A stretch of DNA of 64,000 nt, taken from contig NZ_RRYI01000002.1 of assembly GCF_003931565.1 (NCBI RefSeq), positions 806,001 through 870,000 on the forward strand, read 5' to 3'. Origin of the DNA: Caulobacter sp. 602-1. Lineage in GTDB: Bacteria; Pseudomonadota; Alphaproteobacteria; Caulobacterales; Caulobacteraceae. The position numbers and the translations under genes were made by a program. The notes under the pieces are model-generated. The model ran no database searches. It saw nothing but the letters and a program-made list of their open reading frames with translations, and was not told the DNA's origin. Positions 14,211 through 58,285 of the stretch are shown here, in pieces (position 1 is the stretch's first letter; every line of letters begins with the position of its first letter).

Positions 14211-14792
14211 ATGCGGCGATGGATGGTGATGGCGGGGATGGCGTGGGCCCTGAGCGGTTCCGCCCACGCTTTCGAACTGACGGCCAAGGCCCAGGCGGCC
14301 CTCGCCAAGGGGGAGGCCCATGCAGAGGTGACGCCTGATCCCGACGGCGTTTCAGGGCGCGTGCGGGCGGTGATCGACATCGCCGCGACGCCCGAGAGGG
14401 TCTGGGCGATCATGACCGACTGCGCCACGGCGGGGCGGATGATCACCAACCTGGCCAGCTGTCGCATCGTCTCGGGCGACCAACGCAGGGGCTGGGACAT
14501 CCGCGAGCACGTCACGCGTCGCACCTTCGTCTTTCCGGGGATGCGGATCGTGTTCCGCTCCGACTACGAGCCGGTCAGCCGGATCCGCTTCCACCTCGTG
14601 GAGGGGGACCTGAAGGTCGAGCAAGGCGAGTGGCGGCTGCAGCCGCTGGACGGTGGGCGCGGCACGCGGGTGTTCTACGACAACCGCCTGGCGGTCGACT
14701 GGCCCGTCCCCAAGGCCATGATGCGCGAGGCGCTGCGCAAGGACACGCCGAAGGTCCTGATGAACCTCCGGCGCGCCTGCGAGCAGGGTTAG
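14211..14792 (+). CDS. Exported SRPBCC (START-like/polyketide cyclase) family protein
   Basis: A 193-residue protein with a signal peptide (MRRWMVMAGMAWALSGSAHA, cleavage around residue 20) and an SRPBCC fold: GRVRAVIDIAATPERVWAIMTD is the opening strand and helix of the hydrophobic ligand-binding barrel, and a LNLRRA-type terminal helix closes it (LMNLRRACEQG). Such proteins bind lipids or aromatic ligands; no ligand can be inferred. An AAGGAG lies 13-8 bases before the ATG. Its stop overlaps the stop of the convergent pectate lyase gene (14789-14792). Confidence 0.72.
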   Translation: MRRWMVMAGMAWALSGSAHAFELTAKAQAALAKGEAHAEVTPDPDGVSGRVRAVIDIAATPERVWAIMTDCATAGRMITNLASCRIVSGDQRRGWDIREHVTRRTFVFPGMRIVFRSDYEPVSRIRFHLVEGDLKVEQGEWRLQPLDGGRGTRVFYDNRLAVDWPVPKAMMREALRKDTPKVLMNLRRACEQG

Positions 14793-16426
14793 GCGACGTC
14801 GACATATTTGATCAGCGTGGCCATGTTGGCGATGAACGCGGCGGTCGAGACGCCGATCTTCGGGTTCGGATCGGGATAGGGCGAGGTATCGTACTTGTCG
14901 CCGACCTTGGTCTCCGAGAAGTCGCCCGGCGTCGGCTCGGCCGGAGGCTCGCCGGCATAGGGGTGGCTGGTCGAGGTCAGGGGCGTGGGCCACCAGCCTT
15001 CGGCGTTGAGCTCCACGGTCAGCTTGGCGACCTTGTCGGCGTCGGCCGACACGGCCTTGGGGGCGGAGCTGGACAGGTCGCCGCCGACCGACAGGTCCTC
15101 GACCGAGATGTCCTTGACCATGAAGTATTTGGGCAGCGGACGCTGGCCCTTCAGCGGCGAGTGCTTGCTGGCCTCTTCCGGCGGCGTGGCTTTCAGCGTC
15201 TGGTAGCGGGCGCGCAGGCCCTTCACATCCACGTTCCGGAACGACGAGTAGTGGGTGACCGTGTTGTGCGGGTTCTCGTCGGTGAAGTAACGGCCGCTGA
15301 CCACGTTCGAGCCGGCGCGATGCACGTACAGCGGTCGGCCGTTGCCGATCTGGATGAAGGTCGGATAGCGCGGCTTGCCGGGCATGACGTCGTCGGGCAG
15401 TCGCACGGAGTCCAACCAGTCCAAGGCCTCGGGCACCCGGGTCAGGTACTTCGGGTCGCCGGTCAGCTGGTAGAAGGTCATCATCTGCGACAGGCAGCTG
15501 GCCGTGGCGTGGGTGGCGAACGCCTTGGGCTCGTAGGTGCGGGCGCCGGCCGGCTTCAGGTCGGCTACGGTGTGCTGCAGGCCCCAGGCCGGTTGCGGCT
15601 GTGGCTGTTGGCAGGCGATGTAGCAGTCCATGGCGCGGCGGATCGGCTCCAGGACGCTCTTATCGCCCAGGGCCTGGTAGACCATGATCAGGAACTCGAT
15701 GTTCTCGCCGATCACATCGTCATTGAAAGTGATGAAGCTGGTGTAGTCCGGGTTGCCGTGGTGGTGGAACTCGTTCTTCAGCGGATAGCGCTGCGGCCAG
15801 CCGCCGACGGGATACTGGCTCTCCAGCACGAACTTCAGGGCCTTCTCGAAGGCGGCCTTGTACTTCGGATCCTTCTTTTCGACGTACATGCGCAGCATGA
15901 ACTTGCAGCACTCGGCAGTGCCTTCGTCGTCGAAGGTGCAGTTGCCGTAGTAGTGCTGGAATTCCTCGAGGCGCCAGCCGTTCTTGCCGATCGTGTCGTA
16001 CCACCGCTTCAGCGAGGCCTCGCCGGCGAAGTCGCCGATATAGTTCCAGCCGCCGGCCGGGTTCTGGATAGCGATCAGGGCGTCGGCGGCCTTGCGGGCG
16101 GCGTCGTAGTAATATTCGTCCCGGGTGGCGTGATAGGCGTCGAGGAACAGGTGACCGACCGTGCCGGTGCCGGGCGGCTGCACCCAGATCATCGTCGGAA
16201 AGGCTTCCATCTCGCCCCAGCGACGCGACAGGTCGGCCGAGTAGGACCAGACATAGCCGCCCTTGTAGGCGGCCTTCTCGACCATGAACCTGGCCGCCTT
16301 CTTCATGGTCCCCAAGGCGTCCGCCTTGGTCGGCGCGGCCAGGGCCTTCAGCGGCAGGCCCGCGGCGGCGAAGGCGGCGGCCGTGGTGGCCATCAGGCGG
16401 CGACGGGAGAGGGGGGAGAGCGGCAT
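14789..16426 (-). CDS. Tat-exported pectate lyase (PL10-like)
   Basis: A 545-residue protein with a twin-arginine signal (LSRRRLMATTAAAF, then an Ala-rich hydrophobic stretch ending ALAAPT). The mature part is an alpha-toroid pectate lyase: repeated W/Y-rich helices with AIQNPAGGWNYIGDF and SQYPVGGWPQRYPL, as in the PL10 family, which cleaves polygalacturonate by beta-elimination using Ca2+. I start at ATG 16426 rather than the longer frame because the Tat signal begins there and GGAG lies upstream. Two LacI-type operator-like sites lie about 175-210 bases upstream, consistent with induction by pectin products. Solitary here, without a transporter or pathway genes. Confidence 0.85.
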   Translation of the reverse strand: MPLSPLSRRRLMATTAAAFAAAGLPLKALAAPTKADALGTMKKAARFMVEKAAYKGGYVWSYSADLSRRWGEMEAFPTMIWVQPPGTGTVGHLFLDAYHATRDEYYYDAARKAADALIAIQNPAGGWNYIGDFAGEASLKRWYDTIGKNGWRLEEFQHYYGNCTFDDEGTAECCKFMLRMYVEKKDPKYKAAFEKALKFVLESQYPVGGWPQRYPLKNEFHHHGNPDYTSFITFNDDVIGENIEFLIMVYQALGDKSVLEPIRRAMDCYIACQQPQPQPAWGLQHTVADLKPAGARTYEPKAFATHATASCLSQMMTFYQLTGDPKYLTRVPEALDWLDSVRLPDDVMPGKPRYPTFIQIGNGRPLYVHRAGSNVVSGRYFTDENPHNTVTHYSSFRNVDVKGLRARYQTLKATPPEEASKHSPLKGQRPLPKYFMVKDISVEDLSVGGDLSSSAPKAVSADADKVAKLTVELNAEGWWPTPLTSTSHPYAGEPPAEPTPGDFSETKVGDKYDTSPYPDPNPKIGVSTAAFIANMATLIKYVDVA

Positions 16427-16601
16427 GCGGGACTCCGGATGAGGCGGAGCCGTCGACGATCGGAAAGCCGCTAGAGCCTGTTTGGACAGGTTCCATCTCA
16501 AAGCCTGGAGCGTGATAGGCGCCGAAATCGGCATCCATTTTCGACTGTCGCGCTAGACGGCTTTTGGCGTTTCTCCCGGCCATGATGGCTCCGTCGTCTG
16601 A

Positions 16602-16636
16602 TGCAACGGTTTCAGTTAACATGCTACCGGTGTCAT
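16602..16636 (-). promoter_or_regulatory. Two LacI-family-type operator sites upstream of pectate lyase
   Basis: ATGCTACCGGTGTCAT (16621-16636) is a dyad around ACCGGT matching its reverse complement at 12 of 16 positions. TGCAACGGTTTCA (16602-16614) is a second, weaker dyad around the same AACSGTT core. A central CCGGT with flanking TG...CA is typical of LacI-family operators for sugar catabolism in Caulobacter and Xanthomonas. Position upstream of a pectate lyase suggests a pectin-responsive repressor; none is encoded nearby. Confidence 0.45.
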
Positions 16637-16644
16637 AGCTTTTG

Positions 16645-16925
16645 GCTACCCACTTTTTGCGACGAGTTCTCTCATTCTGGGATGGCCGCGTCAGTGCGCC
16701 GCGGCCCGGCTCAAACCCCTTTTGTGCAAAGGATTTCAAGCCCCGTAGCGTCCCCGAAATGGGGCCTGCGACAGGTCGACGCGTTGCCTAAGGATCCGCG
16801 TTCGGCGAAAGCAATGGCGCCAGTTTACGAGGCGACGCCGCTGCGCTCGATGTCAGCGCGGCCGACGCCGTCCTGTTGGGGAACAGGACGACACCCCCGG
16901 ACCTTCCAAGTCCGGGGGTGTTTTC
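16645..16925 (+). ncRNA. Candidate small RNA ending at an orphan intrinsic terminator (5' end uncertain)
   Basis: The strong plus-strand terminator at 16891-16924 has no plus-strand protein gene in the preceding 2.1 kb (the last ends at 14792), so something short must be transcribed into it. The sequence before it contains a second perfect hairpin (16870-16889). It lacks the marker sequences of tmRNA (no tag-coding frame), SRP RNA or RNase P RNA. The 5' end given is a guess and no promoter is convincing. Confidence 0.35.
16870..16924 (+). terminator. Strong intrinsic terminator preceded by a second hairpin
   Basis: Stem 1: GTCCTGTT (16870-16877) and AACAGGAC (16882-16889) with loop GGGG. Stem 2: ACACCCCCGGAC (16891-16902) and GTCCGGGGGTGT (16910-16921), a perfect 12-bp stem with a 7-base loop, followed by TTT then CATT. 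The T-run is on the plus strand only. Confidence 0.8.
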
Positions 16926-17053
16926 ATTCGCGCGTCATGCTTGCGAATTTAACATTCTGTGACAATTGGGCGCACGCAAAACGATGGTTAATGAACGGTG
17001 TGCGTCCAGCGGTCGCATGGTGGCTCTGTTCATGTCCTGTAAATGTTCGCCCC

Positions 17054-17236
17054 ATGGGGAACAGCAACGATCATCTCAGCGAAGCCGAGCGTCTCGAGCG
17101 ACAAGCCGAGATCGCCGAGACTGCTCATGTCCGGGCGGCGCTGCTGCGCATGGCCCAGGCTTCGCGCGGCGCGGCGGCCCTCCTGGGGCTGTTCGAAGCC
17201 TCGCGCGAAGACGGCCAGCCCTCGATTATGCGCTAA
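17054..17236 (+). CDS. Small 60-residue helical protein, unknown function
   Basis: MGNSNDHLSEAERLERQAEI begins a 60-residue protein that is mostly amphipathic helix; the following AETAHVRAALLRMAQASR resembles short alphaproteobacterial proteins with an AE(T/A)A-x3-VRA-x-LL-x-MA pattern. No clear Shine-Dalgarno precedes the ATG. Its stop lies inside the convergent racemase gene (11-bp overlap at 17226-17236). Coding potential is supported by the family-like pattern, not by strong start signals. Confidence 0.5.
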   Translation: MGNSNDHLSEAERLERQAEIAETAHVRAALLRMAQASRGAAALLGLFEASREDGQPSIMR

Positions 17237-17918
17237 TATCCTCGAGGCAGACCGCCACGCAGCGCTTGGCCAACTCTTCCGTCGCATCGAGGAAGGGAAC
17301 CGACAGGTCGGCCGCGCTCAGCACCAGCGGCACTTCCGTACAGCCCGCCACCACGCTCTGCGCGCCCTTGCCGACCAGGCGGTGGGCAAGGGCGGCCATG
17401 GTCTCGCGCGAGTCCGGGCCGACGTGGCCCTGCTTGATGCGATAGAGCAGGGCCATGAACTCGACCTGCTCGTGGTCGTCCAGCATCACCACCTCCAGGC
17501 CCATATGCGAGAAGCGGTCGCGATAGAGGCCGAGCGCCAGACCGGTGCCCAGCACGCCGACGACGCCGGCGCCCTTGGCCTGGGCGGCCAGGCCCGCCGT
17601 CTCCAGCATGTCGACCAGCGGCAGACCCGAGGCGCGAACCGCGTCTGCATAGGCATGGGCGGTGTTGCAGGCGATGGCCAGCACCTGGGCCCCGCCGTCG
17701 CGCAGGCCCGCCGCCATGGCGGCCAGCACGGGGCCGGGGTCCGAGGCGCTGACATTGCGGTCCGGCACCTTGGGATTGATGTCGACCAGCACCCGTAGGT
17801 GGTCCTGCTCGCGCTTGACCGGCGTGGCGGCCTGCAGCTTGGCGAGGAAGTCCAGGGTCGCCGCCGGGCCCATGCCGCCCAGCACCCCCAAGACCTTGCT
17901 CTGGGGACTCTTGCTCAT
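17226..17918 (-). CDS. Aspartate/glutamate racemase family protein
   Basis: A 230-residue cofactor-independent racemase. The two catalytic Cys are present: C84 in AIACNTAH and C193 in VAGCTEVPL, and the N-terminal [16 protein letters not shown] is the family signature. It would interconvert L- and D-aspartate, glutamate or a related amino acid; the exact substrate is unknown. The ATG overlaps the stop of the upstream D-cysteine desulfhydrase-like gene (17915-17918), so the two are translationally coupled and probably serve one D-amino acid pathway. Confidence 0.85.
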
Positions 17919-18916
17919 CGGAGGGCGGGCTCCAGCACGGACTGATAGCCGAACAGGCCCTGGGCGCCGCCGGTGTGCAGGAACACCACCCGCTCGTTCT
18001 TGAACGCGCCTTTGGCGGCCTGGTCGATCAGGCCTTTCAGCGCCTTGCCCGAATAGACCGGATCGAACAGCAGGCCCTCGGTCCGAGCCGCCAGGGCCAG
18101 GGCGTCGATCACGCCCTGATCGACCAGGCCATAGCCCTCGCCTACATAGTCGCAGTCGGCCACGACCATCTCGCGATTGACGCGGCCGGCCGCGCCGATC
18201 TTCTCGGCGGTGGCGAGCGCCAAGTTGAAGACGTTCTCCTCCTGCTTGGGCTTGGGGGCGCGCACGCCGAAGCCCAGGATCGGGATGTCGACCGACAGGG
18301 CCGCGAAGCCCGCCACCAGGCCCGCGTGGGTGCCGGCGCTGCCGGTCGCCGTGACCAGGCGGTCGATCTTCAGGTCCATCCCGTCGGCCTGGACCACCAG
18401 TTCACGGGCGCAGTCGACATAGCCCAGCGCGCCGACCGTATTCGAGCCGCCACCCGGGATGACATAGGGCTTGCCGCCGCGCTGGCGGACGCTGTCGGCG
18501 GTGGCTTCCAGCTCGGCGACCATGTCCGCGCCGCCGGGCACGTAGCGGATCGCCGCGCCCAGCAGCTTGTCGAGCAGGACATTGCCGTTGCCCATGTAGT
18601 CGCTGGCCTTGGAGCCGGTGCGTTCTTCCAGGATCACTTCGGTCCTGAGGCCAAAGCGGGCGCCAGCGGCGATGGTCTGGCGCACGTGGTTGGACTGCAC
18701 CGCGCCTTGCGTGACCAGCGTGTCGGCGCCCTGGGCTAGGGCCTCGCCGAGCAGGAACTCCAGCTTGCGGGTCTTGTTGCCGCCGCCAGCCAGGCCGGTG
18801 CAGTCGTCGCGCTTGACCCAGAGGTCGATCCCGAGCGCCGCGCCCAGGCGGGGCAGCGGCTCCAGCGGGGTCGGCAGGTGGGCGAAGCGGGCGCGGGGGA
18901 AGCGGGCGAGGTGCAT
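17915..18916 (-). CDS. D-cysteine desulfhydrase / ACC deaminase family PLP enzyme
   Basis: A 333-residue fold-type II PLP enzyme. The PLP lysine motif [12 protein letters not shown] is present (K51 is the expected Schiff-base Lys), with the [16 protein letters not shown] and [17 protein letters not shown] segments of the family. Candidates are D-cysteine desulfhydrase (D-cysteine to pyruvate, H2S, ammonia), L-cysteate sulfo-lyase (CuyA) or ACC deaminase; sequence reading alone does not decide. The partner racemase gene (ATGA overlap) favours a D-amino acid or cysteate substrate. First gene of the two-gene minus-strand operon. Confidence 0.8.
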
Positions 18917-22236: not shown

Positions 22237-22385
22237 GAGTATGCCCTCGGCGGTGGTGACCAGAGGCGGTCACGCTCCATTCGCGCCGGCAAGGCCAAGG
22301 GTAACGAGGTTGACGACTTCGTGATCGCCAGGGCGCGCGACGCTTGACCTTGGCGTCAACGCGCCTAGTGTCGGGCCGTTGTTCA
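22237..22385. promoter_or_regulatory. Divergent promoter region, hydrolase / thiC; TTGACC dyad
   Basis: TTGACC (22344-22349) could be the thiC -35, with TAGTGT (22366-22371) as a weak -10 at spacing 16, giving a transcript that begins just before the riboswitch. TTGAC and GTCAA (22354-22358) also form an inverted repeat with 5-6 bases between. Upstream bases carry the hydrolase promoter, not resolved. Confidence 0.35.
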
Positions 22386-24392
<2,007 letters not shown>

Positions 24393-37898: not shown

Positions 37899-37924
37899 AG
37901 AGCCTGTCCTTTCGGACAGGCTCT
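37899..37924 (-). terminator. Intrinsic terminator of opgH
   Basis: AGAGCCTGTCC (37899-37909) and GGACAGGCTCT (37914-37924) form an 11-bp stem with a 4-base loop. The A-rich run before it on the plus strand reads as TTTTTCTTTT after the hairpin on the minus strand, so it terminates the opgH transcript, 20 bases after its stop. Confidence 0.9.
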
Positions 37925-58256: not shown

Positions 58257-58285
58257 AGGGCTCCGCGATCGAGTCGCGGAGCCCT
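58257..58285 (-). terminator. Intrinsic terminator of urcA (possibly bidirectional with tatC)
   Basis: AGGGCTCCGCGA (58257-58268) and TCGCGGAGCCCT (58274-58285) make a perfect 12-bp stem with a TCGAG loop. The AAAA before it gives TTTTCC after the hairpin on the minus strand, so its main orientation serves urcA, 29 bases past that stop. It may also stop tatC readthrough. Confidence 0.88.

Follow-up and report, generated by a model that had tools for sequence, protein, structure and literature searches.

The locus between the pectate lyase gene and the small ORF

The window analysed here, a 64-kb stretch of a 5.4-Mb genome (G000), carries two neighbouring hairpins in the intergenic stretch between a pectate-lyase-like gene (pel) on the minus strand and an open reading frame (ORF) of 60 aa on the plus strand. 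The features of the locus are listed below.

14211-14792, plus strand: Polyketide_cyc gene by family match, the last plausible plus-strand gene 5' of the terminator
14789-16426, minus strand: pectate-lyase-like gene (pel), matching the Pec_lyase family, with its start at 16426
16621-16636: pectate lyase operator of LacI type, ATGCTACCGGTGTCAT, degenerate, 5' of the lyase start
16767-16786, plus strand: conserved block TGCGACAGGTCGACGCGTTG, a proposed part of the promoter or operator of the small RNA (sRNA) gene
16784-16812, plus strand: proposed RpoD-type promoter, weak, with the -35-like TTGCCTA (16784-16790), 14 nt and the -10-like GCGAAAGC (16805-16812)
16818-16924, plus strand: proposed sRNA transcript of about 105 nt, its start placed from the -10-like element and its end from the terminator
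16831-16869, plus strand: 5' domain of the RNA, in which GGCG (16831-16834) pairs with CGCC (16866-16869) and encloses a short stem-loop
16869-16877/16882-16890, plus strand: GGGG-loop hairpin CGTCCTGTT-GGGG-AACAGGACG of nine perfect pairs, directly 5' of the terminator, a proposed recognition element
16891-16924, plus strand: intrinsic terminator, a 12-bp stem and a short T-run
17054-17236, plus strand: small ORF of 60 aa, kept in relatives, with no match in Pfam or NCBIfam

Longer plus-strand ORFs are also present at 14630-16474, opposite pel, and at 16601-17236, spanning the RNA and reaching into the small ORF; both were taken as chance open frames. A near-palindromic block, TGCGTCCAGCGGTCGCATGG, at 17001-17020 lies 5' of the 60-aa ORF and is kept in the aligned relatives, and a TGTAAA element near the start codon of this ORF might indicate a leaderless mRNA. 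On the minus strand at 17226-18916, two adjoining genes exceed the NCBIfam equivalog cut-offs for the cysteate racemase CuyB and the D-cysteate sulfo-lyase CuyA, and may together degrade D-cysteate. Farther along, a TPP riboswitch (22377-22482, plus strand) precedes thiC.

An orphan terminator preceded by a GGGG-loop hairpin

The terminator stem, ACACCCCCGGAC-CTTCCAA-GTCCGGGGGTGT, consists of 12 perfect pairs (16891-16902/16910-16921) and is followed by a short T-run, GTTTTC, one T of which belongs to the stem. The initial annotation had described both this stem with its T-run and the perfect hairpin preceding it, and both were confirmed in the sequence. Folding of positions 16850-16930 gave -43.9 kcal/mol (z -4.0), and none of the 200 shuffles reached so low an energy.

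The whole window was scanned for terminators using a strict criterion (a perfect stem of at least 8 bp, a loop of 3-8 nt, and TTTT). Three terminators were found, and only the one at 16891-16921 follows no gene; the other two (37899-37924 and 58257-58285, both on the minus strand) each follow an ORF of that strand, at a distance of 20 and 29 nt. Three of the 20 first-order Markov controls held one strict-scan site, and none held a stem of 10 bp or more. A lax scan returned three terminator-like sites versus 2.6 in shuffles and, therefore, only the strict criterion discriminates. The terminator was also rightly described as lacking any plus-strand gene end in the preceding 2.1 kb, the last family-matched gene ending at 14792. 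As for the extent first proposed for the unit, 16645-16925, its right end agrees with the terminator, whereas 16645-16765 lies outside the widely conserved part (approximately 16767-16925).

Conservation within the genus Caulobacter

A BLASTN search with positions 16640-16940 against 75 genomes of the genus, its own included, gave matches in 45 genomes, 42 of which were retained; G032, G036, and G065, together with a second match in G001, were left out as short chance matches. Most matches span approximately 16764-16928 or less, those of the nearest relatives extending further to the left. Alignment A1 comprises 41 of the 42 loci, the locus in G050 being cut by a contig end. The covariance model R1 matched 42 of the 75 genomes (own included) at 100-131 bits, the next match scoring 40 bits, and these are the same 42 genomes as those retained from BLASTN. 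Retention of the hairpins in close relatives had been set beforehand as one of the tests of the RNA, and they were indeed retained, at 100 bits or more, in these genomes. The remaining 33 genomes gave no 100-bit match. Matches at E ≤ 0.001 were present in 59 of the 75 genomes, 17 of which had no match above 34 bits and were scored as misses, most of them uninspected.

The search of 390 family genomes gave a match at this E-value in at least 167, and none of the matches listed above 48 bits lay outside the genus. A search of the genome collection for the exact 19-mer of the hairpin gave 32 stretches. Of these, 30 come from records titled Caulobacter (28), Caulobacterales (1), or Proteobacteria isolate CAULO1 (1); the remaining two belong to Firmicutes and, by eye, have neither the block nor the terminator. 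No match was found in plasmids and phages.

A coding role was rejected: stop codons interrupt each of the frames in 17-21 of the 42 genomes and so none is kept, though frames are often open by chance in single genomes. No Rfam 15 family reached its gathering cut-off at the RNA, the TPP riboswitch being the only one in the window, and the three sub-threshold matches at the RNA scored 19-24 bits versus cut-offs of 50-52. The conservation of the candidate RNA gene is well supported, and what was found, a conserved non-coding unit with an intrinsic terminator and a conserved structure, is one mark of an independently transcribed intergenic sRNA.

Distant or doubtful relatives

An exact CCTGTTGGGGRACAGG search of the 390 family genomes gave matches in 49 genomes, versus three in the reversed control. 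These 49 are the 42 genomes named above, three in which the match looks coding by eye (G114, G154, and G236), and G263, G280, G382, and G386. Eight covariance-model matches below 100 bits were inspected; four of them contain the hairpin motif (G280, G382, G386, and G383) and four do not. G280 has no TGCG[AT]C block, and neither G280 nor G382 has a T-run after the last stem. T-runs are present in G383 and in G263, the latter found by pattern, and the local hairpin is not formed in their minimum-energy folds. G386 has both the block and the hairpin, and three T follow its stem. Of 14 window proteins, none turned up near the matches in G280, G382, G386, and G383. Some of these five loci (G263, G280, G382, G386, and G383) may be distant relatives, a doubtful assignment.

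Predicted structure and covariation

In the predicted structure, which was derived from the same alignment (A1) on which covariation was measured, 98.7% of the cells are paired, versus 37-66% when the partners are slid by 1-3 columns. Pairing reaches 97.5% of the cells in helix 1 of the 5' domain, 92.5% and 100% in its helices 2 and 3, and 99.2% in the terminator stem. Changes on both sides of a pair were counted in 65 cells against a shuffle mean of 20, and none of the 500 shuffles was as high. The number of paired cells, the number of cells with both-side changes, and the covariation score each lay above all 500 shuffles; two of the five measures were less clear, namely the number of pairs with both-side changes (21 of 500 shuffles as high) and that of further pair types (55 of 500).

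The both-side changes affect 4 of the 12 pairs of the terminator stem and are also found in the short 5' stem-loop. In the 5' domain, a CG pair at columns 40/49 is exchanged for UA in 15 of the 40 distinct rows. In the GGGG hairpin, by contrast, 8 pairs were counted, 7 of which are the same in all 40 distinct rows, and its loop columns are invariant. The hairpin is unchanged in the 41 aligned genomes, beside stems that co-vary.

The upstream block and a candidate promoter

A block resembling TGCGACAGG..G.CGCGTTG precedes the hairpin by 96-105 nt in 41 loci, the 42nd being cut by the contig end. At best, 15-19 of the 20 consensus positions are matched in these 41 loci, compared with 9-13 in stretches 600-680 nt upstream. 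In its own genome, the block is matched exactly once, once with one mismatch, and five times with two. A regulon search with TGCGNCNNGNGGNCGC gave 31 matches versus 47 in the control, i.e., no enrichment.

The Caulobacter RpoD consensus is TTGaCgS / GCtANAWC, as given in the part of PMC8144410 available to us. The proposed promoter fits it weakly, at 4 of 7 positions of the -35 and 6 of 8 of the -10 element, N counted, and a lax tool scan did not find an E. coli-type promoter. At or beside the fixed offset of the -10 element, most loci carry a GCGAAA-like sequence, and 8 of 41 carry ACAAAT. Judged from these letters, transcription would start at approximately 16818.

The block 5' of the small ORF was also considered as a counterpart of the sRNA block under a shared regulator. 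This was rejected, as only 12 of 20 positions agree, within the range of unrelated stretches (9-13). The palindrome TGCGWCC-N3-GGWCGCA has two exact sites in the own genome, the small-ORF site and L127:1501-1517; the latter precedes a flagellin-like ORF (named from its translation) and may be due to chance. At up to one mismatch, the palindrome gave 10 matches versus 28 in the control.

Independence of the RNA from its neighbours

The RNA could instead serve the 60-aa ORF as a 5' leader or attenuator, with a start at 16767-16812, a usual stop at 16924, and conditional read-through. In 38 of the 42 loci, the small ORF does lie 3' of the RNA and is read in the same direction, and in the own genome the open frame from 16601 runs through the RNA into it. 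However, the other four loci (G011, G023, G063, and G026) have the RNA without the ORF, and in G011, whose locus also lacks pel, the RNA is flanked by an SRPBCC gene and the racemase gene. Conversely, G005, G028, and G041 keep the lyase, the small ORF, and the racemase gene in order, and the hairpin and terminator are missing there. The constant link to a downstream gene that marks a leader or attenuator is, therefore, absent. In addition, the ORF has a conserved upstream block of its own (17001-17020), and the near-complete pairing of the terminator stem in the alignment speaks against a leader as well. We consider this explanation improbable.

A still smaller chance is left for a pectin-responsive RNA that is controlled together with the divergent pectate lyase or acts on it. 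The LacI-type site announced opposite the RNA, at the lyase promoter, is present as ATGCTACCGGTGTCAT, and several other genomes carry the full ACACCGGTGT operator palindrome. The lyase gene adjoins the RNA in 37 of the 41 assessable loci, but the operator goes with the lyase and not with the RNA: using patterns picked after the alignment was seen, it was found in all 37 lyase-adjacent loci, in none of the 4 assessable sRNA loci that lack the lyase, and in 8 of 9 lyase loci that were inspected and lack the RNA. In four RNA-bearing genomes a close lyase is missing: one gives no match, and the best matches in the others reach 57, 59, and 67 bits. A lyase scoring above 200 bits is present in 11 of the 33 genomes that lack the RNA. 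Duplex energies of the RNA with the two neighbours were not clearly better than those of shuffles, 92 of 100 being as low for the pel 5' region and 10 of 100 for the small ORF. As the RNA, the lyase, and the ORF are present or absent separately, the RNA and its neighbours have been gained or lost separately. From the interpretation in the initial annotation, an unannotated sRNA gene that probably ends at the orphan terminator is retained, and both the pectin response and the leader are abandoned.

It is very unlikely that the element is a bare terminator which stops antisense transcription or shields the pel promoter and yields no functional RNA. Its position upstream of a divergent gene would suit such a role, but the conserved sequence also takes in the 5' domain and the upstream block, the hairpin that does not vary is a separate element from the terminator, and the unit persists without pel. 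A CsrA/RsmA decoy of the RsmY/Z/W kind, for which GGGGA within the hairpin and a weak RsmW match (19.6 bits, E 0.27) could be quoted, has next to no probability, since the match is far under its cut-off of 52 and a CsrA family match occurs in 0 of the 75 genus genomes, by a search that was positive in 3 of 14 known genomes as a control.

A probable stand-alone sRNA gene and its proposed mode of action

The orphan terminator is most likely the end of an sRNA gene of about 105 bases, shared by a large part of the genus Caulobacter. We give a probability of roughly three in four to a stand-alone intergenic sRNA gene with its own promoter, whose hairpin is read in trans. This reading builds on the computed conservation and structure, on the lack of a conserved frame, and on the independence from pel and the small ORF; transcription itself, the 5' end, the action in trans, and the role of the hairpin as a recognition site are what we infer from them.

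Transcription of the plus strand would begin from a promoter within approximately 16767-16812 and stop at the intrinsic terminator at 16924, giving an RNA of about 105 nt. This RNA would fold into a 5' multi-stem domain, the invariant GGGG-loop hairpin of 8-9 bp, and the terminator stem. As this hairpin is invariant while the neighbouring stems co-vary, its partner would read the letters of the hairpin and not the shape alone. A short T-run disfavours strong Hfq binding. Together with the absence of CsrA, this favours an action in which the hairpin most likely would base-pair with other RNAs in trans; alternatively, it would bind a protein other than CsrA.

A search of the own genome for TTGGGGAACAGG and its complement gave 61 matches at up to one mismatch versus 23 in the reversed control. 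There are five exact copies of TTGGGGAACAGG, including that of the sRNA; the other four are inside long ORFs, one of them, in sense orientation, being just 5' of an ORF start, and the search indicated no target.

Relation to known sRNAs

The proposed sRNA is similar in length to GsrN. GsrN, which has a sigma-T promoter, reads G-tracts by a C-rich loop of six cytosines (PMC5869019). Both are Caulobacteraceae sRNAs that expose a homopolymeric loop and have an intrinsic terminator; the loop is C-rich in GsrN, whereas the conserved exposed loop here is GGGG. No GGAAC of the sigma-T promoter GGAAC...CGTT was found in 16640-16830. ChvR is an 84-nt sRNA encoded between CCNA_00157 and CCNA_00158, which is under ChvI and works without Hfq (PMC6237742); the short T-run seen here might fit the same Hfq-independent class. 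The ChvI motif TTGC-N3-GCAA (PMC9731502) is absent from 16640-16850. CrfA is a Caulobacter sponge sRNA whose G/A-rich stem loop pairs with the core of alphaR8 SisA-D (PMC12559287). Like CrfA, the RNA described here is an intergenic Caulobacter sRNA with a purine-rich stem-loop, a likeness of description. The alphaR8 SisA-D RNAs are alphaproteobacterial sRNAs with a Rho-independent terminator as well (PMC12559287), and their core UUUCCUCCCU is absent from 16818-16924. All these comparisons draw on the parts of the cited papers that were available.

The thiC gene is presumably CCNA_02107 in C. crescentus NA1000. From it and the helicase gene CCNA_02118 (PMC3951458, available in part), the RNA would map to 2.262-2.266 Mb in NA1000. 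The GsrN pull-down table (PMC5869019) has no entry at this place, which speaks against a sponge for GsrN, provided that the location is correct and the RNA was expressed. The main text of the literature searched names no sRNA at the locus. The parts available of two papers count 133 ncRNAs (PMC4117421) and 199 with tRNA and rRNA (PMC4287350), and the RNA may well be one of these, numbered but uncharacterised in NA1000. We filed it as an intergenic sRNA that lies outside every Rfam family cut-off and outside the literature searched.

One tentative and rather unlikely idea is that the GGGG hairpin serves as a decoy for the C-rich-loop RNAs of Caulobacteraceae (GsrN- or alphaR8-like), as a second sponge after CrfA. 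If true, it would tie the RNA to stress or starvation networks. According to the parts available of PMC4117421 and PMC4287350, few sRNAs of Caulobacter have known roles. With the RNA, this developmental model genus gains a conserved non-coding gene for which a covariance model is at hand and whose proposed recognition hairpin is clearly delimited. Kept letter for letter in the aligned genomes next to co-varying stems, this hairpin points to a strongly constrained interaction.
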